Position numbers and translations under genes: made by a program. Shown here piece by piece: positions 10,687 through 35,186 of a stretch of DNA of 35,188 bases. The notes under the pieces were generated by a model, which was given only the letters and a program-made list of their open reading frames with translations, searched no databases and was not told the DNA's origin. Numbering within the stretch: the stretch's first letter is position 1; each line of letters begins with the position of its first letter. Source of the DNA: a virus; IMG/VR virus record IMGVR_UViG_3300041409_000428, positions 1 through 35,188 of that record; one strand, given 5' to 3'.

Positions 10687-12683
10687 CAGGCGGGCTCGCC
10701 GTGCTCGGCGCCCTCGGCGGGGCCAGCGGCCCACCAGCCGGGGCGGGCCTTGTGCACCTTCCCGGCGCGTTCCAGGCGGGCCAGCTCCGGCGACACCGTT
10801 GTCCGGTCCAGGCCGAGGTCGTCGCCGATCTTCGACGGTGTCGCGTGCTCCACGCCTTGGAGGTAGGCGACGATGCGGGCGCCGACGGTGGGCGCGGACG
10901 GGGCGTCGGACAGGGGTATGACGGTGCGTTCCGGTTTGAGGCCCCGCGCCGCGTCGAGGGCGTCCCGGCTCATCTCGTCCAGCGGCACCGTGGTGCCCTC
11001 GGTGGACCAGCGGACCGGGTCGGGGTCGAAGTAGGAGCGGAACAGCGCGGGCCGCATCGACGCGCCCAAGGTGTAGCCGAGCCCGCCCGTCGGTGAGCCG
11101 TCCTTGAAGCGGCGCGGAATCTTGTACGGGTCGACGCCCGAGTCGTCCATCGCCGCCAAACCGGACACCTGGCCGGACAGCCGGTCGGCGGTGCGGAACA
11201 CCACCACGTTCCCCGACGTGAGACCGGCCCGGAGCGGGGTCGAGTTCCCGAGCTGGGACAGCAGCGGCACCTGCGCGACGAACGTCAACGCGATACCCAC
11301 CTTCCGGCCCGTGTTCACGATGTCCGCCGCGTTCTCCGCCGCGCCCTTGATCTTCATGACCTGCGGCGCCTCTTCGATGGTGATGGCCAGCAGCGGCATG
11401 TCGGTGGACGGCTCGAAGTGCTTCATGCCGTGCCGGGCCCGGCCTGCAACGTCGGTCCAGTCCATGGTCGCCATGTACCGGGCGCGGCTACGCATGACGG
11501 CCAGCGCCCACTGCAGCATCGCCGCCCCACCCTCCGGGGTGTCCACGGACAGGGCCACGTTGCCCATCCACTCCGGGAACGACATGCCGCCCTGGGGGCA
11601 GCAGATCCACGAGCTGATCAGCCCACCGGAGTGACGTTCGGTGGCGAGCTTGGTGCCGACGAACATGGACTTCCCGGAGCCGGTCGCGCCCGCGATGAGG
11701 GAGTGGACAGCGCCGGAGCCGGGCTGCCAGTAGCGGAGGTAGGCGAGGTCCCCGTCGTGGTACGGCCCGATGGGGGCGATGCCTTCCGTCACGTCGAGCT
11801 GCGGCCCCGGCCACACCTGCGGAACTTCGAGCATGTTGCTCTTGAGCACGGCGATCCTCGCCTGCGCGGCGTTGTAGTCCTCGGTGGGCTCCACGACCAC
11901 CGAGGACATGGGCAGCCGGTACGCCGACGCGATGCGGGCGGCAGCGTTGACGGCGTCGGCGGTGGTGTGCTTCCCCGGGTCGAGTTCGATGGTCGCCGAC
12001 CAGTTGCCGGTGTCGGCGGCGGGCAGGTAGTCGGTGAGCGCGGCGCCGGGCAGGGGCTTCCCGTCGGCGCTGACCCGGTCGGTCCAGATGGTGAGCCAGT
12101 CGCCGGGCCGTTCGGTGGCGCGGGCGCGGTGATGCCACCACCACGGCCCACCCCACGCGAGGACACCGACCGCGAGCAGGCCCGGCATCGGCGGACCCGA
12201 CCCGACCGCGGCGGCGACGGTGAGCCACAGGCCCGCGGCCGTGTACAGGGACCACACCCACAGCAGTTGCCGGCGGGTGCAGGCCTTGCGGCGCGCGGCT
12301 GGTCTGGTGGCGACCCGCTGGCGACTGACTGCCGCCGCCGGGTTGAGTCCGTGCAGCCACCAGGCCAGTGCGGTGCTGCCGAGGAGGGCGAGAGTGAGGG
12401 CGGTGGCGTATCCCTTGTCCGCGCCGGACAGAACAGCCCCGGCGACCTGCAGGACGATCGCCGCGTACAGGGGGGCGAGGCCCCTGCGGTGGGCCCAGCC
12501 GCGGCGGCCGGTCCACCGGGTGGCGGTGGCTGCCCCGCGCAGCATCACGCCGGGCAGCCACTCGGGGCGCATGGCCCGCTGGTAGGCGCGCATCGTCGCG
12601 CGGCGTTCCCGCCGCCCCATCTTGCCGGTGAATGCGGGCGGCAGGAACGGTGCCATGGTCGGCGTGATGCGTGCGCGGGCCAT
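10686..12683 (-). CDS. FtsK/SpoIIIE-family DNA translocase, TraB-like transfer protein
   Basis: 665 residues from ATG 12683. Two or three membrane helices lie between about residues 70 and 190, then a cytoplasmic ATPase. Walker A GATGSGKS is at residues 332-339 and the Walker B strand LLAITIEEA ends with E437-E438 in place of the usual Asp-Glu. NTGRKVGIALTFVAQVP is the conserved FtsK segment after Walker B. The C-terminus (about 600-655) is a winged helix (PSKIGDDLGLDRTTVSPELA), as in FtsK-gamma and TraB, which read short DNA repeats. In actinomycete plasmids such a protein alone moves double-stranded DNA between cells. Chromosome-type FtsK is larger, so TraB-like fits better. Confidence 0.88.
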   Translation of the reverse strand: MARARITPTMAPFLPPAFTGKMGRRERRATMRAYQRAMRPEWLPGVMLRGAATATRWTGRRGWAHRRGLAPLYAAIVLQVAGAVLSGADKGYATALTLALLGSTALAWWLHGLNPAAAVSRQRVATRPAARRKACTRRQLLWVWSLYTAAGLWLTVAAAVGSGPPMPGLLAVGVLAWGGPWWWHHRARATERPGDWLTIWTDRVSADGKPLPGAALTDYLPAADTGNWSATIELDPGKHTTADAVNAAARIASAYRLPMSSVVVEPTEDYNAAQARIAVLKSNMLEVPQVWPGPQLDVTEGIAPIGPYHDGDLAYLRYWQPGSGAVHSLIAGATGSGKSMFVGTKLATERHSGGLISSWICCPQGGMSFPEWMGNVALSVDTPEGGAAMLQWALAVMRSRARYMATMDWTDVAGRARHGMKHFEPSTDMPLLAITIEEAPQVMKIKGAAENAADIVNTGRKVGIALTFVAQVPLLSQLGNSTPLRAGLTSGNVVVFRTADRLSGQVSGLAAMDDSGVDPYKIPRRFKDGSPTGGLGYTLGASMRPALFRSYFDPDPVRWSTEGTTVPLDEMSRDALDAARGLKPERTVIPLSDAPSAPTVGARIVAYLQGVEHATPSKIGDDLGLDRTTVSPELARLERAGKVHKARPGWWAAGPAEGAEHGEPA

Positions 12684-12688
12684 GCCGG

Positions 12689-13606
12689 TCAGCCGCCCGT
12701 GTAGAACTGCCGGTTGGCGACCACGTCGCGGTGCTCGAGGATCGCCCCGTGCCGCTTGCGGACACCCTGCAGCGCGGCCTCGTTGGCGGCGTGCTCGTTC
12801 TCGGCGGCCTGCAGGAGCGCCCGGTGGGCGTTCATGCGGGACTCGACGGCTTCCCCGACGGTGCCGAGCTCGGCGAGGGTGTCGGGGTCGACCTCCATCT
12901 CGGAGAGGGACGCGACGGTTTCGTCGATGCGCTGCACGTCTTGTTCGGCGCGCTGCATTCCGGCTTGCGCGTCGTCGACCTCGTCGGCGGACCGCTTGAT
13001 GTCGGCTTCGAGCTGCTGCTCGTAGTCGTCCATGGAGTTGATGTCGGCGGTGCGGGTGGTGGTGGCCACGGGGGTGTTCTCCTTCGGTTGGGTGGTGCCG
13101 TTGTGGGTGGGGTCGGGTACGGCGGTGAGGGTCGGCGGCGGGGTGTCGGGTCGCGCGGGGGTGTTGGCCACCGGGTGCTGGTCGGGGTTGTCGGGTGCCG
13201 GGTCGACGTTGGCGGTGTCGGCCTTGCCACCGAAGCGGGCGCGGGCCCGTTCCTTGCCTTCCGGCCAGCCGCGTCGCCATCCGGCGGCGAACTCGCGGCG
13301 GACGACACCGGTTCCGGCGACCACAGCGGCCGTGCCGGTGGCGACCCGGCGGCCGACACCCGCGCCACGACCGGTGCCCGTCGCCACATAGCGGCTCCGC
13401 GTCGTCGTGGTCGTCCCGCCGCGGCCGGTGGACACCCTCGAACCGGCGCCGCCGACATGTCCCGGCGGAGCATGCCCGCCGGAGCCGTGGCCACCACCAC
13501 GGCGGCCCTGGATCAGCCGCTTCGTGGCCGCCGTGGCGTCCTCCGTAGCCCGTTTGAAGCCGTACAGCATCCCACCCAAGACGAGCAGGATCATGATCGG
13601 TTCCAT
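12689..13606 (-). CDS. Single-pass membrane protein with coiled-coil domain (transfer module)
   Basis: 305 residues from ATG 13606. A short hydrophobic N-terminus (MEPIMILLVLGGMLYGF) is followed by a Gly/Arg/Thr-rich linker, a Pro/Thr-rich stretch, and from about residue 190 an acidic heptad-rich helix region (LEADIKRSADEVDDAQAGMQ and following) to near the C-terminus. Proteins of this build sit next to traB in Streptomyces-type plasmids and may help spread or tether the translocase; the exact family was not identified. It ends five bases before the translocase start. Confidence 0.72.
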   Translation of the reverse strand: MEPIMILLVLGGMLYGFKRATEDATAATKRLIQGRRGGGHGSGGHAPPGHVGGAGSRVSTGRGGTTTTTRSRYVATGTGRGAGVGRRVATGTAAVVAGTGVVRREFAAGWRRGWPEGKERARARFGGKADTANVDPAPDNPDQHPVANTPARPDTPPPTLTAVPDPTHNGTTQPKENTPVATTTRTADINSMDDYEQQLEADIKRSADEVDDAQAGMQRAEQDVQRIDETVASLSEMEVDPDTLAELGTVGEAVESRMNAHRALLQAAENEHAANEAALQGVRKRHGAILEHRDVVANRQFYTGG

Positions 13607-13620
13607 CGGTCAGTCCTCCA

Positions 13621-14061
13621 TCAGTGAATGCCGAACAGGGCGCCGACGGCCATACCGGCGGCGGTGGCCACACCGTTCACGACAGACGTGCCGACCTGGC
13701 CAGCCAAGCCGGGGATCATGGCCACGGTCACCGGCACGAACGCGGCGGCCACCAACGTCCGGCCCGTCACCTTGTTCTGCCACAGGGCCACCGTCACCAA
13801 GGCGATCGCGACGATGGCCACGACACTGGTAGCCACGACACCACCCAACTGGCCGACGAACTGCGCGACGACGCCGTCCACGTACACCGCCGTGCGGTGC
13901 AGCCAGCTCGCCAGCCCCGACCCGGCGAGCCCCGACATCCCGGCGATGACCAGCACCGCGACGATCCGGGGCTGCCACCGGCCCGCCACGAACCACATGA
14001 TCGCGGCGACGACGAGACACACCAGCCCTGCGCCCGCCGAAATCCCCGCCCCTGCCGTCAT
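13621..14061 (-). CDS. Multi-pass membrane protein, Spd-like
   Basis: 146 residues from ATG 14061, overlapping the upstream stop by ATGA. Four or so hydrophobic segments are visible: about residues 8-28, 32-52, 72-92 and 100-118. No enzymatic motif. Its location two genes upstream of a TraB-like translocase and its composition match the small hydrophobic spread (Spd) proteins of actinomycete plasmids, which help intramycelial DNA spread. The assignment is by context. Confidence 0.73.
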   Translation of the reverse strand: MTAGAGISAGAGLVCLVVAAIMWFVAGRWQPRIVAVLVIAGMSGLAGSGLASWLHRTAVYVDGVVAQFVGQLGGVVATSVVAIVAIALVTVALWQNKVTGRTLVAAAFVPVTVAMIPGLAGQVGTSVVNGVATAAGMAVGALFGIH

Positions 14062-23372: not shown

Positions 23373-26300
23373 TCACCCCCCGTAGATGCGCGCGTCGGCG
23401 AGGTCCCCGGCCAGGCCGTCGGCAACGGCCTCCATCTCGCCGCGGATCCGGCCCATGAACGTGCCGTCGTCCAGCACCAGATTCCCGGTGAACGTGCCCC
23501 CGCCGGCGCGGGCGACCAGCTGCTGCTGGGTGCGCCACTGCCGGTCGGTGAGGACCGCCTCGGGGCGTCCGGTGCCGTTGTAGACGGTCGACACGCCGGG
23601 TGGGATGTAGCCGCCGGAGTCGAAGCCGATGGCCGTACCGAGGCCGAGGGCTTGGCGGGCGGCGGTGATGGCGGGGTTCGTCATCGCCGCGTGGACGTGG
23701 TTGTAGTGCTGGCCGATCGTCGTGTCGGTGCCGGGGGCCGCCCAGCCTCCGTAGTATCCGGCGCCGACCCGCTTCCCGTTCTTGACGAAGAACCCGCCGC
23801 CACCGGAGTGGATGAGTTCCAGCTCGTAGTTGGACAGCCGGTACATCCAGCGGGCGAGTTTCGCCATGTTGTCGGCCGAGGAGTACATGTCGACGGCCAG
23901 GCCGCGGCCGTGGTAGTCGTTGGTGTTCCGCAGCGTGGACGACACACCGAACGGGATGTTCGACTTCCGGGCGAGGGCGATGATGTTGTTGTACGAGTGG
24001 GCACCCATGCCTTGTCCGACGACACCGCTGGCCCGGCCGAGGGCGCCGGTGGAGCTCAGTTCCACCAGCGACGTCACCTTGCGGACGATCATCGCCGCGA
24101 TGGCCTTCGGGATGGCGGCGATGGCCTGCACCCACGGCGAGTCACCGAGGGCCCGCATCCGGTCCAGCGGCCCCGTGATGCGGCCGATCAGCCCACCGTC
24201 GGCGTAGCCGCCCAGCCAGCGCTGCACCCCGCCGACACCGCCGCTGCGGGCCACCTTGTTGGCCTCGTCCACATAGCCGGGGCCGACGGCGCGCGTCCAC
24301 TCCGGACGCATGATCGCCTCACCGCCGGAGACGCCGATCATGCCGACGTCCCGGCCGGGCGTGTACCCGGGGTAGACGCCGCCACCGGCGAACCCCTTCG
24401 GCAGCTTGATCTGCACATTGTCCGGCTTGACGTTGAACATTTTCGCGATGTAGTTGTACCCGGCCAGCAAACCCTTGTTGAGGATCGTTTCGACGAGAAA
24501 CTTGACGGGGACCTTGGCCGCGTTCCGCAGCCCGTCCCACGCCTTCCCGATGGCCTCCACGCCCTTCTTGAACGAGGGGGCCACGTTCTCGGAGATGAAC
24601 CCACCCACAGCCTTGAACACCGGCCGCAGGATCTTTTCCCAAACCCACTTCGCCGCCGCGCCCACACCGTCGAACACGGCCTTCACCGTCAGGAAGAAGC
24701 CCCGGAAGATCCCCACGAGGATCTTGATGGCGATCTGCAGCAGGCCGAAGATGACCTTGATGACAGCCCATGCGACGGAGATGACGATCTTGATGCCGTT
24801 CCACACCGGTTCGATCTCGTCATGCCACAGCCACATGAAGATCGGGCCCAGCACGTGCTCGATGGTCCACGCGATGGCCGTGAAAATGGGGTGCAGGAAG
24901 TTGTCCCAAACCGACTTCGCCGCGCCGCCGATCGCGTCGAACACGGGCTTGAACACGTTGTTCCACAGCCACATCACCACCGGGGCCACGACGTTCTCGT
25001 AGAACCACACGAGGGCCGCGAACACGGGCTTGATGACCTTCTCCCACGCCCACTTCGTCGCGTCGACGATGGCCTGCCACGTGGCCTCCACCACCCGCCG
25101 GAACACCGGGAACCGGTTGTACGCCAAGACGACGGCGACACCGAGCGCCCCGATCGCGGCGATGACCGCCAGCACCGGGGTCGCGATGAGAGCCAACGCG
25201 ATGTTCGTCAGAAAAACCGCCGCCGCGACCGCGCTGATACCGACGGCGATGATCGTCAAATCCTTCGCCGGGATGGCGGAGATGATGTTCCCCAGCCGCT
25301 CCAGACCGGCGATCGCCGTCCCACCGATCGGGGCCAGCGCGCGGACCACATTCTCGAGCCCCCGGAACAGGGACCCCAGCATCGCCACCACCCGGGGCCC
25401 GTTCTCCCGGATGTAGGCCAGGAACTCCTGGAAACCCCTGTTGTCCTTCAACCCCTTCGCCCACGCCGCGAACCGGGCCGTCAAACCGACCAGGCCGTCG
25501 CCGAAGTCCTTCGCCGCCGGATTGAACGCCATGAACATCGCCGCGAGACCCGTCGCCAAATTCCCGACGACCGCCCCCATCTGCCGCAACGCAGGCAACG
25601 CGTTCTCCGCCAGGAACCCGAAGAACTCCCGCCAGAACGGAGACGTCAACGCCCGCCCCGCAGCGGCGAACATGTCGCCCAGCACCCGTGCCGCCGCGGC
25701 GACGAACCGGTTGAGCTGCGGGAAGTACGGCAGCAGGGAACGGATCCCCGCCTCCACGCCGGGTAGCAGCCCGGCCTGTGCGGTGGCCCGCAGAGCATCC
25801 AGGCGCGGCTTGAGGGAGAACAGGAACCGGGCGAACGCCTGCCCGGCCGGGGACAGGTTGTCCATCGACTGCCGCAGCTTCACCATCGCCGCCGACGCCG
25901 CCGCGCCTGCCGTCACCGACGCGCGCTCCAAGCTCCGCTGCGCCGACACGACGGACTGCTGCGCCTGTCGCACTGTGTCGTTCGCGGCAGCGACCCGCTG
26001 CTGCGCGTCCACGACCTGCCGGGATCCGTTGACACCGGCCCGGTCGGAGGCGGCCTTCTCCTGCCGCAGCCGCTGCGTGCGCACCGTCTGCTCGTCCAGC
26101 TGCTGCACGGCCTGCTCGTAGGACAGCTGCGCCTGCTGCCGTTCCAGCGCGGTCGACTTCGGGTCGGCGCTGACCCGGTCGAGTTCCATCTTCGCCCGCG
26201 CCACGTCCAGGTTCGCCTGGCGTTGCGCCAGCGCCCCGCCACGCACCTGCAACGCCAGGTCCTGCATGGCGCGGCGGGCGTCCTGCCTCGCGCGGGTCAA

Positions 26301-26957
26301 ATCCTGCTGCGCCGTCTTCGCCTGACCTTGCGCGCGCGTCAGGTTCTGCTCGGCGTTGCGGACCTGGTCGGCGGAGTTCGCCAGCGACAACTGCCGCGCC
26401 GCCGCAGACGCGGCGTCCTTCCCGGCGGCCAGCTGCGCCGCACCCAACGCCTTCACCGCATCCCCGACACCGGAGAAGCCCAGGAACATCACCCCCAGTC
26501 CCGCACCGGCGCCGATCGCCGCCGTGCCGATCCCCGCCACCGCGACAGCCGCAGCCCCCGCAGCGGGGACCAAAGCCGACCCCAGCAGCAGACCGGCGGA
26601 CACCAGCCCCGCCATGCCCACACCCGCGAACGCGATCCGGGACTCCAACGCCGACAGCTGCGCGTTCGCGCCCGCCGTGTCCACGTCCACGTTGATCGTC
26701 GGAGAGGAACGGCCGAGCCGGTCGGCCTGCGCGCCGACCCGGTCCAACTTCCCCGACGCCCCGGCGGTGTCGGCGTCGACCTGCACCTTCGGGTTCTTCA
26801 AGTTCTTCGCGATGCCATCGGAGATCTGCCGGCCGATGTCCTCGCCGATGCTCTTGGCGACGGGGTTGAGGTCGCGCCGCAACGTGGGCACGAACCGGCG
26901 CGTGTCGGGGACGACAGTGACCCCGACGGAGCCGACGTTGATACCGGGTGCGGTCAC
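23373..26957 (-). CDS. Tape measure protein with internal peptidase domain
   Basis: 1194 residues from GTG 26957, overlapping the frameshifted chaperone stop. Long Ala/Gln-rich helices at about 180-380 and hydrophobic segments at about 110-160 and 560-620 are typical of tape measures, which set tail length. Aromatic 11-residue-like repeats (WEKVIKPVFAALVWFYENVV, MWLWNNVFKPVFDAIGG) fill 630-790. Near the C-terminus a LAS/M15-like zinc peptidase core is visible: STLR near 1005, H1016-x6-D1023 in YHGRGLAVD, and H1087-x-H1089 in YNHVHA. The peptidase could open peptidoglycan during DNA entry. Confidence 0.92.
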   Translation of the reverse strand: MTAPGINVGSVGVTVVPDTRRFVPTLRRDLNPVAKSIGEDIGRQISDGIAKNLKNPKVQVDADTAGASGKLDRVGAQADRLGRSSPTINVDVDTAGANAQLSALESRIAFAGVGMAGLVSAGLLLGSALVPAAGAAAVAVAGIGTAAIGAGAGLGVMFLGFSGVGDAVKALGAAQLAAGKDAASAAARQLSLANSADQVRNAEQNLTRAQGQAKTAQQDLTRARQDARRAMQDLALQVRGGALAQRQANLDVARAKMELDRVSADPKSTALERQQAQLSYEQAVQQLDEQTVRTQRLRQEKAASDRAGVNGSRQVVDAQQRVAAANDTVRQAQQSVVSAQRSLERASVTAGAAASAAMVKLRQSMDNLSPAGQAFARFLFSLKPRLDALRATAQAGLLPGVEAGIRSLLPYFPQLNRFVAAAARVLGDMFAAAGRALTSPFWREFFGFLAENALPALRQMGAVVGNLATGLAAMFMAFNPAAKDFGDGLVGLTARFAAWAKGLKDNRGFQEFLAYIRENGPRVVAMLGSLFRGLENVVRALAPIGGTAIAGLERLGNIISAIPAKDLTIIAVGISAVAAAVFLTNIALALIATPVLAVIAAIGALGVAVVLAYNRFPVFRRVVEATWQAIVDATKWAWEKVIKPVFAALVWFYENVVAPVVMWLWNNVFKPVFDAIGGAAKSVWDNFLHPIFTAIAWTIEHVLGPIFMWLWHDEIEPVWNGIKIVISVAWAVIKVIFGLLQIAIKILVGIFRGFFLTVKAVFDGVGAAAKWVWEKILRPVFKAVGGFISENVAPSFKKGVEAIGKAWDGLRNAAKVPVKFLVETILNKGLLAGYNYIAKMFNVKPDNVQIKLPKGFAGGGVYPGYTPGRDVGMIGVSGGEAIMRPEWTRAVGPGYVDEANKVARSGGVGGVQRWLGGYADGGLIGRITGPLDRMRALGDSPWVQAIAAIPKAIAAMIVRKVTSLVELSSTGALGRASGVVGQGMGAHSYNNIIALARKSNIPFGVSSTLRNTNDYHGRGLAVDMYSSADNMAKLARWMYRLSNYELELIHSGGGGFFVKNGKRVGAGYYGGWAAPGTDTTIGQHYNHVHAAMTNPAITAARQALGLGTAIGFDSGGYIPPGVSTVYNGTGRPEAVLTDRQWRTQQQLVARAGGGTFTGNLVLDDGTFMGRIRGEMEAVADGLAGDLADARIYGG

Positions 26958-27774
26958 AGGTCGCCCCCGTCCCGGTCACGCATCGCGAGCATGTGACGGG
27001 CAGCCGCTGCCCGGTCTTCCGGTCCGGCGACACGCACGGGTTCCGCGCCGGGCCGGTTCCGCATCGCCGCCATGTGCGCCAGGACCTCATCCGACGGCGG
27101 CACCTTCACCGCCGCCGACGCCACACCGGGGCGGGGCATCGGCTTCGGCTCCGGCGGCTTCCCCCCACCGGCCACGTACACGGCGTAGGTGGTCCACGCG
27201 AGCCGATCGCACACCTCGGCGAGGAGGGCCTCGATCCGCGACCACGGGCCGTGCCCCGACGGCTTCGGCAGGGCCGCCAACTGCTCCGGCGTCATGCCGT
27301 CGCGGATCGCCGTCACCGTCGCCGACTCCGGCGGCAGCCCGTCGATCAGGACCCCGAGTTCCCGGTACGTCATCCGGCCACGCCACAGGTCCCGCAGATC
27401 GCGGCCCGGATAGTGGCGGGCGATGTCGGCTTCTACCGCCTCCGCGTGCTCCTCGAGGAGGGCCGTGAGCTCCGCAATTTTCCCAGGTCCTGCCCGGCGA
27501 GCTCCTTCCAACGATCGAAGAAGCCGGTCAGGTCGTCGTTCGTCGGATCCAGGTCCAGCCACTTCGCCCGGTCGTCGGCGGCGAGAACCATGTCGGCCCA
27601 CGACTCGAAGTCGCCGTGCGCCAGCGCCGTGTTCGCGCGGCTCTTCCACTTCCCCGCCGCCGGAACCCGAATGTCCTCTTTGCCGTCGTCGGTGACGAGT
27701 TCCACCACCACGGACCCGTCGTCGACCTCGGCCGTGACTTCGGCTTCCACCGCGGCCAGCTTCTCGGCGGCCAT
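26954..27774 (-). CDS. Tail assembly chaperone, GT-type product of -1 frameshift
   Basis: Ribosomes reading the G gene would slip -1 at GGGAAAA (27484-27478): codon 98 GGA and codon 99 AAA are followed by ATT in the new frame, and reading continues IAELTALLEEHAEAVEADIA to the stop at 26954, giving about 273 residues. The downstream frame has no convincing start of its own; its upstream reading is an Arg-rich shadow. In siphophages such G/GT pairs chaperone tape measure and tail tube assembly. The C-terminal part (MTYRELGVLIDGLPPESATV) is the conserved T region. Confidence 0.85.
27433..27774 (-). CDS. Tail assembly chaperone, G-type product
   Basis: 113 residues from ATG 27774, sharing a base with the major tail protein stop. 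An acidic beta-rich start (VTAEVDDGSVVVELVTDDGK) and a helical part (WADMVLAADDRAKWLDLDPT, FFDRWKELAGQDLGK) match actinophage tail chaperones. Unshifted translation passes the slippery site and ends after LRSSRPSSRSTRRR. Most ribosomes are expected to take this path. Confidence 0.85.
   Translation of the reverse strand: MAAEKLAAVEAEVTAEVDDGSVVVELVTDDGKEDIRVPAAGKWKSRANTALAHGDFESWADMVLAADDRAKWLDLDPTNDDLTGFFDRWKELAGQDLGKLRSSRPSSRSTRRR
27478..27484 (-). promoter_or_regulatory. Programmed -1 frameshift site GGGAAAA
   Basis: On the minus strand G-GGA-AAA (27484-27478) fits the X-XXY-YYZ rule and lies exactly where the two chaperone frames overlap (27433-27650). Confidence 0.82.
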
Positions 27775-28334
27775 CAGGTCGTGATCCCGGCGAGCTTGAA
27801 GTAGGAGTGCACGGACACGCCGTCGGACCCCGGGTAGGCGGTGATCGTCAACTCGTAGCCGATCAGCTCCGCCGTCTTGTACACCACGTCGCCGCGGCCG
27901 GTGACCTCACCGGTCGGGACGGCGAACCGGAACAGGTTGTTGGCCCCGTCCGTCACGTCGAACAGGAACGCCCGCCGGTCCTGGTTCAACGCGTTCGCGT
28001 CGGTGAAGTCCATGATCGTGGTCGTCACGTCGGGGACGATCGTGGTCTGCTTGTAGTACAGGCCCAGGGTCGTCTTGTTCGTCTCCCAGCAGGTGATCTT
28101 GAAGGTGCGTTCCGCCTTCGTGACCTGGGTGCGGACCGGCGACGACCGGCCCCACGGGGTCCACTCCTTGCGTTCCTCGCTGGCCGTCGCGGTGAGCCCG
28201 TCTTCGGAGATGTGCCCCATGTCGGTCCAGCCGGTGGAGGGGGCGGCGAACCCGACGGGGAACGTCACCCCCGTGGCGCCGGTGAACGCGACTCCGGCCG
28301 CTCCGGCGCGCATGAAGTCAGGGTTGCTTGCCAT
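27774..28334 (-). CDS. Major tail protein
   Basis: 186 residues from ATG 28334, preceded by GAAGGAGA. The Gly/Ala start (ASNPDFMRAGAAGVAFTGAT) and the pattern GWTDMGHISEDGLTATASEE, RTFKITCWETNKTTLGLYYK, then LFDVTDGANNLFRFAVPTGE is that of siphophage tube proteins of actinophages. It directly precedes the tail chaperones, as in most siphophages, and follows the tail terminator. The 71-base gap before it (28335-28405) holds its leader and no gene. Confidence 0.86.
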   Translation of the reverse strand: MASNPDFMRAGAAGVAFTGATGVTFPVGFAAPSTGWTDMGHISEDGLTATASEERKEWTPWGRSSPVRTQVTKAERTFKITCWETNKTTLGLYYKQTTIVPDVTTTIMDFTDANALNQDRRAFLFDVTDGANNLFRFAVPTGEVTGRGDVVYKTAELIGYELTITAYPGSDGVSVHSYFKLAGITT

Positions 28335-28405
28335 CAGGTTCTCTCCTTCGTGCGGGCAGGCGGCAGCGCCCGGCCCGGGAGGGGTCGGGTCGGCAGTGGG
28401 GTGGG

Positions 28406-28798
28406 TCAGGCGGCGGGGCGGCGGACGGTGAGCTGGTAGGACGCGCCGTAGCGGCGCATCGTCGTGTCGTCCCACGGCCGCCAGTGCGGCCCGGCGATGG
28501 TCTGCACCCGGCTCACCGTCGTCCCGCCGACCGTCTTGCCGGGGAGGGTGAACCGCAGCAGGTCACGCACGTCTTCGGCGAGGTCCTCGGCGGTGCCACG
28601 GCTGGCCGCGTAGCAGTCGACGTCGACAGTCGGCAGGTCGATGGTCGGCTGATCGTCCGGACCGCCGAAACGCACCACCTGCACCACCGGCAGCTTGGTT
28701 GCGAGCTGCGCCGGGAGCTCCGTGACGACACGCGTAACAGTCGGGAGCTGCGACTCCAGCCAGGCGACGAGAAGCTTTTCGACGCTGGCATAAGGCAT
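28406..28798 (-). CDS. Tail terminator-like protein
   Basis: 130 residues from ATG 28798. It begins MPYASVEKLLVAWLESQLPT, has the strand TELPAQLATKLPVVQVVRFG and PTVDVDCYAASRGTAEDLAE, and ends RRYGASYQLTVRRP. This helix-strand layout (start helix, LP-x-VQVVR strand, DVDCYA strand, AEDLA helix) is typical of tail terminator/minor tail U-type proteins that cap the tube. Placement just upstream of the major tail protein agrees. Confidence 0.82.
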   Translation of the reverse strand: MPYASVEKLLVAWLESQLPTVTRVVTELPAQLATKLPVVQVVRFGGPDDQPTIDLPTVDVDCYAASRGTAEDLAEDVRDLLRFTLPGKTVGGTTVSRVQTIAGPHWRPWDDTTMRRYGASYQLTVRRPAA

Positions 28799-28801
28799 CG
28801 G

Positions 28802-29161
28802 TCAGGACACTGACGTGCTCGTCGCCGCACCCGGGCCGGTGCCCGTGGACGCCGTGGCGGGCCCGGAGCCGCCGATGGGTCCTGCGCCACCGGGGACGGC
28901 CGTCGAGGCTTCACCGGACGTCTGAGCGGCCCGGATCGCCTCGGCGATGTCTTCCTTCGTCGCCGACTGCGCCACGGGCACGTTGACCCGGGCGGCGTGC
29001 TTGATCAGCTCCGCCTTCGTCATGCCCATCAGTTCGTCGGTGTCGTCGATGACGACGGCCCGCCCGTCGCGGACCAGCTCGCGGGCCTCGTCGTCGGTGA
29101 CGTCGCGGGTGGTGCCGATGAGGCTGTTGTCGGGGTGGTAGCTGATGCGGACGGTTGGCAC
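28802..29161 (-). CDS. Small structural-region protein with SAP/HeH-like motif
   Basis: 119 residues from GTG 29161. After a beta part (VRISYHPDNSLIGTTRDVTD, ELVRDGRAVVIDD) there is a helix-extended-helix stretch (MTKAELIKHAARVNVPVAQS, ATKEDIAEAIRAA) as in SAP/HeH domains. The tail is Gly/Ala/Thr-rich and looks disordered. It lies between neck and tail terminator genes. HeH/SAP modules often touch nucleic acid, but its role here is unknown. Confidence 0.72.
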   Translation of the reverse strand: MPTVRISYHPDNSLIGTTRDVTDDEARELVRDGRAVVIDDTDELMGMTKAELIKHAARVNVPVAQSATKEDIAEAIRAAQTSGEASTAVPGGAGPIGGSGPATASTGTGPGAATSTSVS

Positions 29162-29173
29162 GGTAGGTCCTCC

Positions 29174-29494
29174 CTAGTCTCTGGCGGCGTCGAGTGAACG
29201 GCCGAGGACACGATGGCGTGGAGTCCGGGAAGTACCGAACTCGACATAGAACGCTTCGGGGCTGTCGTTGTAGAGCCGCCCGAACGCGCGGCTCGTCTTC
29301 CGCCGCTGCACACCCGACTCGACGTGGAACGACGCCTTGTACCGGCCGGGATGCGGGCCGTGCTCGTCCACGGGGGCGATGCTCTCGGCGTACACCTTCA
29401 TCTTCTCGGCGCGGCGCCGCATCTCCGCCACCATGCCCGGCGACGTCAGGAGACGCCCGATACCGGAGTAGTCGGCCTGGTATCCGTCGGCCAT
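29174..29494 (-). CDS. HK97 gp10-like neck/tail completion protein
   Basis: 106 residues from ATG 29494 (TGATG overlap). The string GIGRLLTSPGMVAEMRRRAE, IAPVDEHGPHPGRYKASF, then SPEAFYVEFGTSRTPRHRVL matches HK97 gp10-like proteins (A-P-V-D/K...GxL/YKxS...Y-x-x-x-VEFGT-x-x-x-PxHxF/V). They sit in the neck between connector and tail. An upstream in-frame extension lies in the previous gene and is rejected. Confidence 0.83.
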   Translation of the reverse strand: MADGYQADYSGIGRLLTSPGMVAEMRRRAEKMKVYAESIAPVDEHGPHPGRYKASFHVESGVQRRKTSRAFGRLYNDSPEAFYVEFGTSRTPRHRVLGRSLDAARD

Positions 29495-29835
29495 CACGTC
29501 ACCCGCTTCACGGGCACCTCGGTGCCGAAGAACGTGCCGGAGAACGGGGACCGCCACACACCCGGCTCACCCTCCACCTCGTACACGGCGCCACCGACAC
29601 GGAACCGGTCGCCGGGCTGCACGTCGTAGCCGGGCAGCGGCGGCAGGAGCAGGGTTTTCCCGACGATGACCGTCGACTCGCCCTGGTCACGTTCGGAGGA
29701 GTAGCGGGGCGCGACACCCACATCGGGGAGGGGTGTCTCTGCGGGTTCGTCGTCGTACAGGTCGTTGCCGTAGCCGTCGGTGCCGATCAGGGTGTACCGC
29801 AGCCGGACGACCGTCTCCCCGTGCGCGAACCTCAC
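29494..29835 (-). CDS. Head closure-like protein
   Basis: 113 residues from GTG 29835. A beta-barrel-like chain (ETVVRLRYTLIGTDGYGNDL, ESTVIVGKTLLLPPLPGYDV, DRFRVGGAVYEVEGEPGVWR) ending FFGTEVPVKRV is typical of actinophage head-tail stoppers. It follows the connector gene in transcription order, with a plus-strand moron inserted between them. Confidence 0.76.
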   Translation of the reverse strand: MRFAHGETVVRLRYTLIGTDGYGNDLYDDEPAETPLPDVGVAPRYSSERDQGESTVIVGKTLLLPPLPGYDVQPGDRFRVGGAVYEVEGEPGVWRSPFSGTFFGTEVPVKRVT

Positions 29836-29855
29836 TCTCGGTCGCCACCTCTCGG

Positions 29856-29901
29856 TACGCTGACCGGCATGACGACCACGCCTGGAAGGTGGAACCCGTG
29901 A
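29856..29901 (+). promoter_or_regulatory. Moron promoter -10 and 10-codon leader ORF
   Basis: TACGCT (29856-29861) fits an actinobacterial -10 and lies 7 bases before ATG 29869; no good -35 is seen. The ATG opens a 10-residue ORF (MTTTPGRWNP) whose TGA overlaps GTG 29898 (GTGA), and the GGAAGG inside it is the ribosome-binding site of the next gene. This fits a leaderless message with coupled translation. Confidence 0.45.
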
Positions 29902-30200
29902 GCAACTGGGCAACCGTGCTCCACGGCCCACTGATCCGCAGAGGTAGCGGCGCGACGACCTGGACGAAGCCTTACCCGGACGATCCGGCTGGCCGGGCCG
30001 TGTGGCACGCCGAGCAGGCTGCCGACCTGCTGAGACGGGCCTCCGAGTCGCGGTGGCCGGACCGACTCGAGCCGGTTCACACGCCCGACATGCGCCAGTT
30101 CCTGCGCGAAGCTGCGGATGGACAGATGGCCCTCGCCGCCACCTGGGCGACTGTGGCGGAGCCAGTCACCAAGGAGCAGCGCAGTCCCGCCGAGCCCTGA
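29898..30200 (+). CDS. Plus-strand moron gene inside the late operon
   Basis: 100 residues from GTG 29898. It is the only convincing plus-strand gene in the 18 kb structural region and has its own likely promoter, the definition of a moron. The protein is mostly helical (GRAVWHAEQAADLLRRASES, PDMRQFLREAADGQMALAAT) with a strand-like start (NWATVLHGPLIRRG). Its 3' end overlaps the connector gene by 35 bp in the opposite direction. Morons are often expressed in lysogens and change host traits or exclude other phages. Function unknown here. Confidence 0.7.
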   Translation: MSNWATVLHGPLIRRGSGATTWTKPYPDDPAGRAVWHAEQAADLLRRASESRWPDRLEPVHTPDMRQFLREAADGQMALAATWATVAEPVTKEQRSPAEP

Positions 30201-30819
30201 CCCCGAACGCGACCGTCCCGACACCGCCGTTGCCGGCAGCCGCCGGGGCCAACTGGGTGAGCTCGTCCTGACCGACGAACAGGAACCCCGCCGCCAGCCG
30301 GAAGTTGTAGTTGACGCTGAACGGTCCGGCCGATTCGTTGCTCAACGCCGCCGGGTTCCGCAGCACCCGCAACACCATCGCCACCGCCACGTCGCGGGCG
30401 TCCCACCACGACACCGTGCCCAGGGCCAGGTTGCCCTCCAACGCCGGGACCGCGCTGCGCATCCTGCGGGACGCGGTCGCCAGCAGCCGCTCCGTCAACG
30501 TCACCTGCGGCACGTCCAACGCCCCGAACACGTCCACCACATCGTCCACCGACGCATACGGCAACGGGGCATCAGCGGCATCCACCAGCAGCGGGTGCCG
30601 CTCCCGCGCCGTCACCGTGCCCGACGCGACGAACAACACCACCCACCGGCCCGCCACGTCCGGAACGAACGTGTGCGGATACAGGCCGCTCGCTGCCGGG
30701 GCCTCCGCGACACCCACCTCCGGCACCGACGTCCCGTCCTCACGGAACGCCTCCGCCGTCACCACCGCACCCGTCGTCGTCTCCATCGTCAAGGTGACCG
30801 CGTCGCCGACCTCACTCAT
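30166..30819 (-). CDS. Head-tail connector (Gp15/Gp19-like) with N-terminal beta domain
   Basis: 217 residues from ATG 30819. The C-terminal half (YASVDDVVDVFGALDVPQVT, LTERLLATASRRMRSAVPAL, VAMVLRVLRNPAALSNESAG, PFSVNYNF) is the helical head-tail adaptor seen in many actinophages. The first 75 residues form an extra beta domain (GLYPHTFVPDVAGRWVVLFV), not part of a minimal adaptor. It connects portal and neck. Confidence 0.82.
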   Translation of the reverse strand: MSEVGDAVTLTMETTTGAVVTAEAFREDGTSVPEVGVAEAPAASGLYPHTFVPDVAGRWVVLFVASGTVTARERHPLLVDAADAPLPYASVDDVVDVFGALDVPQVTLTERLLATASRRMRSAVPALEGNLALGTVSWWDARDVAVAMVLRVLRNPAALSNESAGPFSVNYNFRLAAGFLFVGQDELTQLAPAAAGNGGVGTVAFGVRARRDCAAPW

Positions 30820-33146
30820 CTGCGCCTCACCCTCCCCGGCCCCGTCGACACCGTGACGTGCACCCGCCGCGTCACATCCCGCACCGTTCCCGCCGGGCCC
30901 GTGCGCCGCACCACCGCCGAACCCGACACCGGCGGCACACCCAGGCGCATCACCAGCACGTCATCCGCGCCCGTACCGTCGACGACCGCCCGCACCAGCA
31001 CCCGCACCGGCGACACCGAATCGGTGGCACCCGCGTCGTCGCCCACCGTGCGGTCATAGGCAGCGGCCGACACGAACACGTCGCCCGACCCGGCCGGATC
31101 GTCGACCGGCAGCCCGCGAACGAACGCGAACGCCACCACATCGCTGGCGCCCGCGCCGTCGGTGAACGACCGCTGCGACGTGAGCGCCGGTGAAGCCACG
31201 TCGGTCGCACCGGCCGGGTCACCGATCGTGAGCCCCGCGCTGCCGCTGTACGTGTCGCCCGAACCCGCGTCGTCGACGACACCGAGGGCCTGCGTTTTCC
31301 CGGCAGTGTCCGACGCCCCGGCCGTGTCGGTGACAGTCACGGTGCGGGTGACCACCGTCGCGGCCGTGTCTGTGGGCCCGGAGTTGTCGGTGACGGTGAG
31401 CGCCTTGACCAGCGACACGACGGTCGTGTCCACGACACCGGCCGTGTCGGTGAACGTCCGGGCGGCGGTGGACGCGGTCGTGGCCGTGTCGACGGTGCCG
31501 CTGTCGTCGGTGAAGCTGCGTGTGTGCGTCGCTGCGACGGTCGCCGTGTCGGTGACACCGGCGGTGTCGTCGACAGTGCGGGTGGTGGTGACGGCCACGG
31601 TCGACGTGTCCGCCGCACCCGCGACGTCGGTGAACGTGCGGGACGCGGTCGAGGCCGCCGTGGCTGTGTCCGTGGACCCCGCGCCGTCGTCCACCGTCAC
31701 CGCGCGGACCGCGGCGAGGCTCGCTGTGTCGGTGGCGCCCCCCGGGTCGGTGGCCGAGAACCCGGCCACCAGCGACCACGTGGTCGCATCGGTGCTGCCC
31801 GCCGCGTCGTCGACCGTCCTGCCGAACGTCGCCACCACCGCGGCGACATCTGTGGCGCCGGCTGTGTCCGTGAACGTGCGCGCGACCGTCGCGGCCAGCA
31901 GCGTCGTGTCCACAGACCCGGCCGGGTCGTCCACCGCAACCGGATGCGTCACCGAGGTCACGGCCGTGTCCGCGGCGCCTGCGCTGTCAGTGGCGGCGAC
32001 AGTCACCGTCAGCGACAGAACAGCCGCGTCGCTCGCACCTGCCGGGTCGTCGACGGTCCGCGTGTAGGCGCCCGCGGTGGTCGCCGTGTCGACGGAGCCC
32101 GCCGGGTCGTCCACCGCCCGGGTGAACGTCGCAGCCGTCGCGGCGGTGTCCGTGGCCCCGGCGCTGTCGGTCGGGGTGACAGTGAACGTCGCCCCCGGCA
32201 CGGCGGGCTTCACGGCCAGCGTGGCGGTGATCACGTTCACGTTGGTGTTGGCGCCGACCCAAGTCCCGCCGCCGATCGACGTCGCCGACGGCAGATGCGT
32301 CAGATCGTCCGCGACCGCGGTCGACGTGCCACCAGAACCCGTCGCATTCGCGACCGCCGCCACCGTGAACCCCGCCGGGGGCGACCACGCCGTGTTCGAC
32401 GTCGTCGACCGCTCCGAGATGACCGACACCGCCAAAGCGCCGGCAGTGGCCGTGGCCGTGGTGGGTGTGGTGTGGCTGGTCTGGTTGACGGTCTCCGCGA
32501 CCTGCGTCGCGACCTCGAACGGGGCGGTCGCAGCGGTCCCCGCCCAGGCGACGAGGACGGCGGTGTGCCGGTTGATGACGTCGTTCACCATCGCCACGGT
32601 CGCCCCGGCGTCACCGGCCTGCGCGACCCGGTACAGCAGGTACTGGCGAGATGTGGCGGTGGGGTGGTCGAACGGCGCGAGCAGCGCGGTCCAGCCGGTG
32701 GGGACAGTCGGGACGGCCGTGTTCAGCATCGTCCACGCGATGAGCAGCGCGTCGTTGGGCTGCACTGTGGCGGGGATGGTGAGGTTGAACGAGGTGGCGT
32801 TCGCGCCGCCGGTGGCCGTACCCCGCACCCACACCGTGGACACGTCCGACGCGTCGACCGCACCGGCACTGTCGGTGACCGTCAGCCCGTAGGTGACCGC
32901 CTGGGTGGCCGCGTCCGTGGCTGCGGCACTGTCGGTGACGGTGAGCCCGTAGACGGCCGCCGTCGAGAAGTCGTCGGCGGCACCGGCGGTGTCGTCACCG
33001 AGAATCCCGAACGCCGACTCGACGACCGCCGCATCCGACACACCGGCGTCGTCGTCCACCGCAAGCTCCGGCAGGTCGACCACATACGCCGGATGCCCGA
33101 ACCGGGGCTGGATGGGGGTGCGGCGACCGAACAGCGGTGCGGTCAC
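30816..33146 (-). CDS. Large repeat protein: about 25 units of a 20-residue D-x-AG-x-x-D repeat
   Basis: 776 residues from ATG 33146. Four repeat units occupy residues 30-108 and about 21 more run from about 325 to 745. Units share the pattern (T/D)D-x-AG-x-x-D(T/V)A and end in R-T-V/F (for example FTDTAGATDVAAVVATFGRT), with a near-constant period of 20. Between them, residues 105-312 form a beta-sandwich domain (NLTIPATVQPNDALLIAWTM, WSPPAGFTVAAV) known from phage fibres. The Asp pattern could bind calcium. Placement between putative capsid-side proteins and the connector suggests a capsid or neck fibre. Confidence 0.85.
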   Translation of the reverse strand: MTAPLFGRRTPIQPRFGHPAYVVDLPELAVDDDAGVSDAAVVESAFGILGDDTAGAADDFSTAAVYGLTVTDSAAATDAATQAVTYGLTVTDSAGAVDASDVSTVWVRGTATGGANATSFNLTIPATVQPNDALLIAWTMLNTAVPTVPTGWTALLAPFDHPTATSRQYLLYRVAQAGDAGATVAMVNDVINRHTAVLVAWAGTAATAPFEVATQVAETVNQTSHTTPTTATATAGALAVSVISERSTTSNTAWSPPAGFTVAAVANATGSGGTSTAVADDLTHLPSATSIGGGTWVGANTNVNVITATLAVKPAVPGATFTVTPTDSAGATDTAATAATFTRAVDDPAGSVDTATTAGAYTRTVDDPAGASDAAVLSLTVTVAATDSAGAADTAVTSVTHPVAVDDPAGSVDTTLLAATVARTFTDTAGATDVAAVVATFGRTVDDAAGSTDATTWSLVAGFSATDPGGATDTASLAAVRAVTVDDGAGSTDTATAASTASRTFTDVAGAADTSTVAVTTTRTVDDTAGVTDTATVAATHTRSFTDDSGTVDTATTASTAARTFTDTAGVVDTTVVSLVKALTVTDNSGPTDTAATVVTRTVTVTDTAGASDTAGKTQALGVVDDAGSGDTYSGSAGLTIGDPAGATDVASPALTSQRSFTDGAGASDVVAFAFVRGLPVDDPAGSGDVFVSAAAYDRTVGDDAGATDSVSPVRVLVRAVVDGTGADDVLVMRLGVPPVSGSAVVRRTGPAGTVRDVTRRVHVTVSTGPGRVRRR
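30911..33059 (-). repeat. 60 bp-period coding repeats (two blocks)
   Basis: The protein repeat corresponds to 60 bp units at about 32823-33059 and 30911-32174. At DNA level units are similar but not identical (recurring GCCGGGTCGTCGACG-like and GTGTCGGTGACA-like cores on the plus strand), which points to an old expansion kept under protein-level selection. Two units near the C-terminal side are shortened. Confidence 0.8.
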
Positions 33147-33149
33147 CGG

Positions 33150-33908
33150 TCACCCCAGAGAGTCGTGGACGGCCACCGGAGTCGACAGGTTCCCCGACGG
33201 GGACCCCTTGCCGAGCCGGAACGGCAACGGCCCCAGCGGGCCCTCACTGGACACCCCCACGCCCGACAGGAACATCTGCGGCCAGTTCGCCGAGGACGAC
33301 GTGTAGCCGTACAGGTAGTTCGTGGCCGACGCGGCCCCGAAGTTCTGCCCCGACATGGTGATCGTGTCCGACACGTTGTCGGAGTCGACGTCGTCGCCCT
33401 TGTACAGCCACACGTCCGCGTTGCCCGTCGTGGTGCTGGCCTGCACCCGGGCCTCGATGCGCATCCACGACCCGGCCACCACCGTGGCCGTCGTGTAGGC
33501 GAACACCGTCGCGTCGAAGTTGCACACGAACACGCGTGCGGTCGCCGGGTCGATGCCCACCATCGAACACACCCCGGTCGCCGAACCCGTGGACTCCGCA
33601 CGCCACACGTAGCATTTGCTGCCCGTCGGCAGGGTCGAGTAGTACAGGTAGAACCGCGCCCACACCTGGGTTTGGGTGCCCATCGACGTGGACCAGTTGA
33701 ACTTCGGGCTGGCGCTCGTCGCCCCCGTGCTGATCTCCATCGAGAACTCGGCGGTCGGCCGCGCCGGGGTGGCCGAGTACCGCATCACCACACCGGAGAT
33801 CCCGGCGTTCTGCACCAGGTCGAACGCGTCCCCGCCCTGCGCCGAGTTCGCTGCCGTCAACGTCGTCCCCGCCGGGCCGCCGTCGAAGTTGTTCTCCAGA
33901 ACCGTCAC
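33150..33908 (-). CDS. LamG/concanavalin-like structural protein
   Basis: 252 residues from GTG 33908. It has ENNFDGGPAGTTLTAANSAQ, then VMRYSATPARPTAEFSMEIS, TQVWARFYLYYSTLPTG and GSWMRIEARVQASTTTG, the strand order of LamG-like jelly-roll domains in actinophage proteins. Such domains bind glycans. As part of the cluster upstream of the connector it may decorate the capsid or form a side fibre together with the repeat protein. Confidence 0.77.
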   Translation of the reverse strand: MTVLENNFDGGPAGTTLTAANSAQGGDAFDLVQNAGISGVVMRYSATPARPTAEFSMEISTGATSASPKFNWSTSMGTQTQVWARFYLYYSTLPTGSKCYVWRAESTGSATGVCSMVGIDPATARVFVCNFDATVFAYTTATVVAGSWMRIEARVQASTTTGNADVWLYKGDDVDSDNVSDTITMSGQNFGAASATNYLYGYTSSSANWPQMFLSGVGVSSEGPLGPLPFRLGKGSPSGNLSTPVAVHDSLG

Positions 33909-33911
33909 CGG

Positions 33912-34361
33912 CTACTGCTCGAACACGAGGTTGATGTGCACGTTGCCCGCCGCGACGGCCGTCAGGCGCAACGCCCGGTTCGTCGACACCGGCTGGTACA
34001 TCTCACGGGCGTACGGGTGGAACGCCGAGTACATGCCCGGCAGCGGGAACACCCACGACGGCAGGGTGCCGCGCGCGAACCCCGCCGGTTCCACCGTGTC
34101 CGCGATCTTCACCGTGCCCAAGAGGGCCACAGGGCCCTGGTCCATGCCGTACTTGAACGCCGTCACCGTCGTCCCCGTGCCGGTCGTCGTGAACGTCCCC
34201 CACTCGACCACGCACGACGACGCCGCCGTGTGCGAGAACGACAACTCCAACGCGATCACCGTCAACGGTGCCGTCGAGCCGGTGGGGATCTCGATGCACG
34301 TCTTCGCCGTCGCCGCCACCAACGCGATCGACCCCGTCGAGACGCTGTACTGGGTGGCCAT
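33912..34361 (-). CDS. Conserved beta-sandwich structural protein
   Basis: 149 residues from ATG 34361 (TGATG overlap). The chain STGSIALVAATAKTCIEIPT, APLTVIALELSFSHTAASSC, VVEWGTFTTTG, then AREMYQPVSTNRALRLTAVA and GNVHINLVFEQ follows a beta-sandwich module found beside fibre proteins in many actinophages. A structural, accessory role is likely. Confidence 0.76.
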   Translation of the reverse strand: MATQYSVSTGSIALVAATAKTCIEIPTGSTAPLTVIALELSFSHTAASSCVVEWGTFTTTGTGTTVTAFKYGMDQGPVALLGTVKIADTVEPAGFARGTLPSWVFPLPGMYSAFHPYAREMYQPVSTNRALRLTAVAAGNVHINLVFEQ

Positions 34362-34684
34362 CAGCCACCACCGACCGGACCGGGCGGATACGCCCAACCC
34401 GGACGCTGCCACGGCGGGTCATCCGGGTGATCGGCGCCGCAGTGATGCACCCGCGGACCACCCCGACCCGCGTACGCGTCGAGTCCGGTCACCATCGCCA
34501 CGCCGTCGATGTCCTCGACCGTCTCGTGCATCCACGTGCCGTGCTGCAACGGCTCGCCGCAGCCCGAGCACACGTAGCAGCCGACCTTCGTGCCGAGAAA
34601 GTCCACGGCGCCCGGACGCACAAGCGGCGTGTCCCCCGAGGACTTCGGCACCGGGAACGGCGTGAACTCCGCCACGTCACTCAC
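34361..34684 (-). CDS. Small putative zinc-binding protein
   Basis: 107 residues from GTG 34684, overlapping the upstream gene by 8 bp. CYVCSGCGEPLQHGTWMHET, with a later VHHCGADHP, offers Cys/His pairs suited to one zinc site. The C-terminus is Pro/Gly-rich (PPWQRPGWAYPPGPVGGG). Such small proteins occur among actinophage head genes; the role is unknown. Confidence 0.72.
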   Translation of the reverse strand: MSDVAEFTPFPVPKSSGDTPLVRPGAVDFLGTKVGCYVCSGCGEPLQHGTWMHETVEDIDGVAMVTGLDAYAGRGGPRVHHCGADHPDDPPWQRPGWAYPPGPVGGG

Positions 34685-35186
34685 CCGGAGCCAACCCGGC
34701 GACAGCCGAGAACACGCTGTTCACCGTGAACGCGATGTTCGCGTCCGTCTCCACCTTCATCACAAACCCCGACGCCGTCCCCGTGCCGTTGCCGGCCATC
34801 GGGACCGAGAACGTGGTCGCCGTCAGATTCGTCACCGACCACACCCCGTTCGCGCGGGTGTTCACCAGATGCTCGAACACCTCCACCACGTCCCCGTTCA
34901 CATACCCGTGGGACGCCGAAGTGGTGATCACGAGCGGGTTCGCGCTCGACGACGACGCGATCGCCACCGGCGCGAACCACGCCAGCGACGACGCCTGATC
35001 GGCCGCCACCGCCGCCACGAACGACGCCAGCATCGAATCCGGCCCGTTCAAGATGCGTGTCGCCAACTGCCTGCGCTTCACCCACGCATTCGACGACAGG
35101 GCACCCTGAACCTCCGAGGACACCGAGATCGCGGCCCGCACCATCGCCGACCGGATCCGCGACGCATACAACGGATCCGCCACCAT
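34677..35186 (-). CDS. Phage structural protein with FCCH-like beta domain
   Basis: 169 residues if it starts at ATG 35186, two bases from the window edge; a start further right cannot be excluded. The first 75 residues are helical (YASRIRSAMVRAAISVSSEV, RRQLATRILNGPDSMLASFV), a segment I know from a protein encoded near the major capsid gene in actinophages. The rest (ITTSASHGYVNGDVVEVFEH, ANGVWSVTNLTATTFSVPMA) is the ubiquitin-activating-enzyme FCCH-like fold common in phage structural proteins. Portal and capsid genes should lie just beyond. Confidence 0.76.
   Translation of the reverse strand: MVADPLYASRIRSAMVRAAISVSSEVQGALSSNAWVKRRQLATRILNGPDSMLASFVAAVAADQASSLAWFAPVAIASSSSANPLVITTSASHGYVNGDVVEVFEHLVNTRANGVWSVTNLTATTFSVPMAGNGTGTASGFVMKVETDANIAFTVNSVFSAVAGLAPGE

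Follow-up and report, generated by a model that had tools for sequence, protein, structure and literature searches.

A candidate head or neck fibre built of 20-residue D-x-x-G-x-x-D units in a temperate siphovirus and its uncultured relatives

Results

The repeat gene lies between the capsid and connector genes

The window, that is the whole stretch of DNA analysed, is a 35,188-base IMG/VR virus record. It comes from a temperate siphovirus, with an integrase gene, RecT/exonuclease genes at the left end and a tape measure gene (Table 1). The gene for the repeat protein belongs to a same-strand late operon, in which it is separated by 3 nt from the upstream gene for a 252-aa protein and overlaps the downstream Ad1 gene by 4 nt. 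Plus-strand ORFs opposite the array (31162-32067, 32077-32892 and 31524-34430) were rejected as high-GC shadows, the neighbours being all on the minus strand.

Table 1. Features of the repeat gene and of its surroundings in the window
Feature	Position	Strand	Evidence
Integrase	6332..7543	(+)	
995-aa ORF, FtsK/SpoIIIE-like	10686..13673	(-)	phrog_1358 8e-7
Tape measure	23373..26957		
Major tail protein	27774..28475	(-)	phrog_117 4e-36
Tail terminator	28406..28798	(-)	phrog_123 2e-26
Endonuclease VII-like protein	28802..29161	(-)	phrog_3281
Neck protein	29174..29557	(-)	phrog_16886/387
Head closure Hc1	29494..29931	(-)	phrog_501 9e-24
Head-tail adaptor Ad1, ~80-residue N-terminal extension	30166..30819	(-)	phrog_137 1e-20, PF09355
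Repeat protein CDS, 776 aa, GTG start	30816..33146	(-)	ORF as in the sequence-only reading
Arg/Gly/Val-rich C-terminal tail, residues 743-776	30819..30920	(-)	sequence
C-terminal array, 21 units, cores at residues 327-723	30921..32168	(-)	core spacing; DNA pattern
Central all-beta domain (CD), ~residues 112-320	32187..32813	(-)	homologues; AlphaFold2 pLDDT 91, pTM 0.89; BFVD matches
N-terminal array, 4 units, residues 32-111	32814..33053	(-)	core spacing
252-aa protein	33150..33908	(-)	no family match
166-aa protein	33912..34412	(-)	no family match
107-aa Cys/His-rich protein	34361..34684	(-)	
179-aa protein, truncated by window end, complete at L002:2722-3261	34677..35186	(-)	

A second record, L002, is identical to the window virus across 10,370 bases and continues beyond the window end. 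Its upstream genes begin with that of a 143-aa protein, which by eye looks like a gpD decoration protein, followed by those of the major capsid protein (phrog_29, 4e-52), a 109-aa protein, a protein called p193 (phrog_5417) and the 179-aa protein. Read from the head side, these genes are continued by those of the 107-, 166- and 252-aa proteins and the repeat protein, and then by Ad1, Hc1, the neck protein, the tail terminator, the major tail protein and the tape measure. The combined gene order of L002 and the window thus places the repeat gene between the capsid and the connector, inside the head/connector block. This agrees with the sequence-only reading, which had tentatively put the protein on the capsid or neck and its gene next to the head-tail connector, here Ad1.

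Several other features of this region were observed. The 252- and 166-aa proteins, encoded between p193 and the repeat gene, both appear beta-rich (the former looks LamG-like when judged by eye), and they may belong to the same appendage as the repeat protein. Ad1 aligns with phrog_137 from residue 79 only; the ~80 residues ahead of this match resemble a small additional beta domain (Ig-like) joined to the connector protein. The gene for an endonuclease VII-like protein lies between the neck and tail terminator genes, the 107-aa protein inside the head gene block is zinc-ribbon-like, and the 995-aa ORF overlaps other good ORFs.

The arrays of the window protein are regular and old

The window protein contains 25 D-x-x-G-x-x-D cores, four of them (starting at residues 32, 52, 72 and 92) before a domain of ~209 residues, designated CD, and 21 after it. 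The core-to-core step within the arrays is 20 residues, with the exception of two steps of 18. An aspartate is present at positions 0 and 6 in 25/25 units and a glycine at position 3 in 24/25, the remaining core having an alanine instead. The sequence-only reading, which had described about 25 units of near-fixed 20-residue period and a conserved core around a single beta domain, was correct on each of these points, CD being a real domain with homologues of its own and all-beta in a confident AlphaFold model.

The self-identity of the C-terminal array was 0.37 at lag 20 and 0.41 at lag 40, as compared with at most 0.21 in shuffled sequences (n=500), and a three-unit DNA pattern occurred 16 times in the window for 0 expected. 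The mean identity between units was 55% for DNA and 41% for protein, and Tandem Repeats Finder did not call the array. These repeats are therefore old and not recently expanded, as had been suggested from the divergence of the units.

The repeat defines a widespread and almost exclusively viral family

A scan of IMG/VR with the three-unit DNA pattern yielded at least 120 stretches, among which a two-unit HMM was used to separate true repeat loci from DG-rich noise. At least about 65 true loci were retained (at least 70 at the cut-off, counting a small number of near-duplicates and two or three loci of doubtful status), and the DG-rich and LRR-like matches, such as L006 and L087, were set apart as controls. 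The window protein has more than the three units at 20-residue spacing by which we define the family, and it matched the HMM with 18 domains at 2e-49, its own units being in the training set.

The consensus unit reads D-[ST]-[VLA]-G-[LIV]-[TS]-D-[STA]-x-[ST]- in its first half and x-x-x-x-x-x-R-[TSA]-[VIL]-[TS] in its second. Among 423 units taken from 30 ORFs that were reached via p193, independently of the repeat itself, D0 was conserved in 96%, G3 in 84%, D6 in 98% and the whole core in 83%. The array of the window protein is an Ala-rich variant of the family. A further variant was seen at L268:8362-11406, a very long array in which the core glycine is mostly substituted (D-x-x-[AST]-L-x-D).

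A stricter pattern, which retains 55/70 of the IMG/VR loci, was applied to 257 Gb of cellular genomes and gave three true matches among the 60 stretches listed, in MAGs of an Actinomycetota (L135), a Nocardioides (L167) and a Nitrosotalea (L141). Both bacterial genomes also carry p193, which makes it likely that L135 and L167 represent prophage or virus contigs. A search of 395 genomes from the same class as L167 recovered p193 from the L167 genome itself and, weakly, from one further genome. The archaeal contig, from a Candidatus Nitrosotalea MAG, holds a true repeat array, and a search of its genome gave no p193; this array could belong either to an archaeal virus or to a cellular surface protein. 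The repeat is thus a real, widespread and almost exclusively viral family.

The distribution bears on whether the window gene encodes a virion protein at all. In their general character, Asp-rich repeats recall the surface adhesins of bacteria, and the virus has an integrase, so that a secreted or lysogen-expressed surface adhesin borne by a prophage could be envisaged. We regard this as very improbable, since the gene lies inside a late structural operon with junctions of 3-4 nt on both sides, and since the repeat is almost absent from cellular genomes, p193 being likewise rare in those of the class of L167.

Searches against known families placed neither the repeat nor CD nor p193 in a curated family, and their relatives are touched only by unnamed PHROG clusters. 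The window protein had no Pfam match at E<=1 (no Ig domain among others, and no curated calcium-repeat model such as RTX), and for 57 relatives the 25 top-ranking families likewise included no calcium-repeat family. No PHROG reached the threshold with the window protein, while some relatives matched phrog_12240 (17/57), 18245 and 22415; no function is assigned to these clusters or to phrog_5417. The best PDB sequence match, a designed helical repeat (E 0.0019), was rejected because it clashes with the beta pattern described below, leaving no PDB relative. The sequence-only reading had not recognised the repeat as any named phage family, and a match of the unit to a well-described domain, looked for in these searches, was indeed not found. 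A tblastn search of named phages gave no true match for the repeat, CD or a close p193, although low-complexity masking may conceal some; a match in Mycobacterium phage Aminay proved to be antisense to gp26 and a composition artefact. The full-text literature, in a coverage that leaves out most subscription papers and preprints, contained no description of the repeat or of the module that it forms with p193 and CD.

The repeat is beta-patterned and carries a common phage domain

Analysis of 706 units showed that even positions are taken by bulky residues and odd ones by small residues (permutation p = 0.0004), with bulky hydrophobic residues at positions 2, 4, 8, 12, 14 and 18 of the unit. Such an alternation is the pattern expected of extended beta structure, and it favours the beta part of the beta stack that had been proposed from the sequence. 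An AlphaFold prediction of eight units with 44 aligned segments upheld this proposal in part, as it gave two strands per unit but with low confidence (pLDDT 51, pTM 0.37). Comparison of this model with the PDB gave weak solenoid-like matches, none of them significant. Its low confidence would be compatible with an intertwined oligomer, which monomer prediction hides.

The same low pLDDT, together with the Ala/Thr/Asp/Gly-rich composition, could also be taken to mean that the array is no ordered fibre but a flexible and mostly unstructured stretch of low complexity, which keeps adhesive domains apart as a linker or mucin-like coat. However, the strict 20-residue register, the full conservation of 83% of the cores in the 423 units and the strict even/odd alternation together suggest an ordered repeat, which makes such a linker quite improbable.

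An ordered stalk might further be stabilised by calcium, as the sequence-only reading had it, the Asp pairs of adjoining units chelating the metal so that the fibre is rigid only in its presence. Such stabilisation would refine the fibre model more than compete with it. The two aspartates six residues apart, in register each 20 residues and 96-98% conserved, speak for such a stack; no metal-binding family was matched, however, the repeat model is too weak to place the carboxylates, and the aspartates could instead cap turns or make solvent-facing ladders. We therefore hold calcium stabilisation to be possible but somewhat doubtful.

The AlphaFold2 model of CD was all-beta and confident (Table 1). 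Comparison of its fold with BFVD gave 71 matches at E<=0.001 (best E 8e-10, TM 0.77), mostly uncharacterised phage proteins with some minor tail proteins, while comparison with the PDB gave no significant match. On the basis of this model, CD appears to be a common but unsolved phage fold. Glycan binding by CD would be a guess, given the lack of a significant PDB match.

CD and p193 are linked to the repeat gene

CD homologues were found in 35 ORFs, 18 of which are repeat ORFs and 8 of which are separate ORFs within repeat loci; in L018, L060, L212 and L228 the separate CD ORF is directly upstream of the repeat ORF. The p193 gene starts ~160 bases past the window edge in the identical contig (L002:2011-2592), 2.2 kb upstream of the repeat gene and on the same strand. 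A search with the p193 of the window virus itself found homologues close to the repeat gene at 37 of the repeat loci. With a p193 profile, trained on repeat-linked members, p193 was present in 41/50 whole repeat-bearing contigs and in 0/49 control contigs, which were not taxon-matched (Fisher p ~2e-19). In the reverse direction, a repeat ORF was located within 8 kb in 56/79 p193 loci. These reciprocal rates apply to this p193 subfamily, because the profile was built from repeat-linked members. The p193 and repeat genes were co-stranded in 74/74 non-duplicate loci, with p193 upstream in 57 and a median gap of 425 bp.

Comparison of the flanks of the module in other viruses (138 ORFs) showed mainly major head, head protease, portal, terminase, head-tail adaptor and Neck1 proteins; the major head protein accounted for 17 family-member matches, partly overlapping, and tail matches were few. 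The order p193, repeat, Ad1, terminator, major tail, tape measure was found again in L054, where the repeat and Ad1 genes overlap by 4 nt as in the window. In L111 and in L023/L231 (two contigs), the array is N-terminal to an Hc1 head-closure domain within one ORF, a fusion that is absent in the window (phrog_501, 5e-21 for L111; L231 has the same tail). Some relatives also have arrays fused to lectin-like or otherwise adhesive domains; Laminin_G_3 occurs in 6/57, and DUF2341, DUF4082 and H_lectin were seen as single cases.

A first and smaller set of neighbours showed that some repeat genes adjoin tail or baseplate genes, and the attachment site may therefore vary. The protein could then be a fibre of the tail or baseplate, of the receptor-binding or side-fibre type, and the place of its gene amid head genes would be incidental in this virus. 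The neighbours of some relatives (central tail fibre J, baseplate wedge or tail proteins) point in this direction, as do the occurrence of the CD fold in 'minor tail protein' entries and the tail-region location of gp55 of Achromobacter phage phiAxp-1, a distant p193 relative that lies beside another fibre-like gene. On the other hand, head, packaging and connector genes prevail in the larger flank set, the tail genes form a separate downstream block in this virus, and two contigs have their arrays joined to Hc1; we thus consider a tail fibre unlikely. PhiAxp-1 was also evaluated as a named carrier of the module and rejected, having neither the repeat nor CD.

Proposed role

The anatomy suits a fibre, with a stalk of periodic beta units, an all-beta domain displayed on it, a partner gene dedicated to it and a locus that lies between capsid and connector. 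We conclude that the product of the repeat gene is probably a virion fibre of elongated shape, carried on the head or neck of this temperate siphovirus as a head fibre or whisker, so that the fibre-like architecture proposed earlier gains support. The 20-residue units would form a beta-structured stalk with a turn at D-x-x-G-x-x-D, CD would be displayed on this stalk, in the window protein between 4 and 21 units, and the product of the upstream p193 gene would be the partner that regularly accompanies it, probably as base, adaptor or tip. Such a fibre would probably bind the host surface, envelope glycans or appendages weakly and reversibly, before the tail engages. We infer the presence of the protein in virions, as well as its assembly state, docking partner, stoichiometry and ligand binding. 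More tentatively, and with somewhat less than even confidence, the repeat, p193 and CD may constitute a virus-specific modular head/neck fibre system with a new beta-fibre architecture, possibly metal-stabilised, the system being exchanged among many phages.

Few phages are known to have head or neck fibres, and the proteins that form them are not easily identified from sequence. The gene for the phi29 head fibre, gp8.5, has a similar position in the head-gene block. To our knowledge, none of the surface proteins Hoc (T4), pb10 (T5) and SPP1 gp12 has been described with a D-x-x-G-x-x-D 20-residue repeat. The phi29 fibre is head-attached and elongated and contributes to ordered attachment without being needed for stability (PMC7602432); it is alpha-helical (PMC7602432), whereas the repeat described here is beta-patterned, and family searches showed no relation between them. 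Hoc, pb10 and SPP1 gp12 strengthen weak host or carbohydrate binding (PMC7602432), the first two having Ig-like folds and the third being collagen-like; the window protein had no Ig match in Pfam. In lactococcal 936 phages, an optional gene between the capsid and tail genes gives rise to a neck disc and whiskers (PMC4759559); this nps gene is immediately upstream of mtp whereas the repeat gene precedes Ad1, and the two are likened by gene position, not by sequence. The head fibres of phage 7-7-1 reach flagella (PMC12796354). By analogy with these head fibres and decoration proteins, the 936 whiskers and the fibres of 7-7-1, reversible binding to the host surface is the likely role.

The triple beta-spiral shafts of the adenovirus fibre and reovirus sigma1 have patterned hydrophobics, two strands and a Gly/Pro turn (PMC3150272). 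In their 15-position consensus (a-o), the positions c, e, g, k and m are hydrophobic and j is Gly/Pro (PMC3150272). A repeated unit, patterned hydrophobics and two strands (the latter from a weak model) are shared with our repeat, but its period of 20 and its paired aspartates flanking a glycine depart from that consensus.

The head/neck fibre is thus a kind already known, while the repeat and its module are undescribed as far as tested. The repeat is a candidate new fibrous beta fold, for which 6-8 units would make a tractable construct for structure and metal work, and the combination of repeat, p193 and CD offers a recognisable signature with which such fibres could be annotated across uncultured phages.

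Two features at the ends of the repeat proteins were also observed. An N-terminal [LF]GR..P motif stands ahead of the array in the window (33060-33146), L018, L019 and L238, that is in 4/107 repeat ORFs as compared with 28/6793 other ORFs, and its sharing is suggestive only. Many repeat proteins, such as those at L017:3-938, L271:11760-13790, L075:11884-13521 and L249:9342-11828, close with another repeat whose unit is shorter, at ~9-12 residues (RTLRVPAEDRTLVVAAENRTL and RVRIGAPKGRIDMGEPKARISIGAPK are examples), and which is possibly an attachment or capping element.
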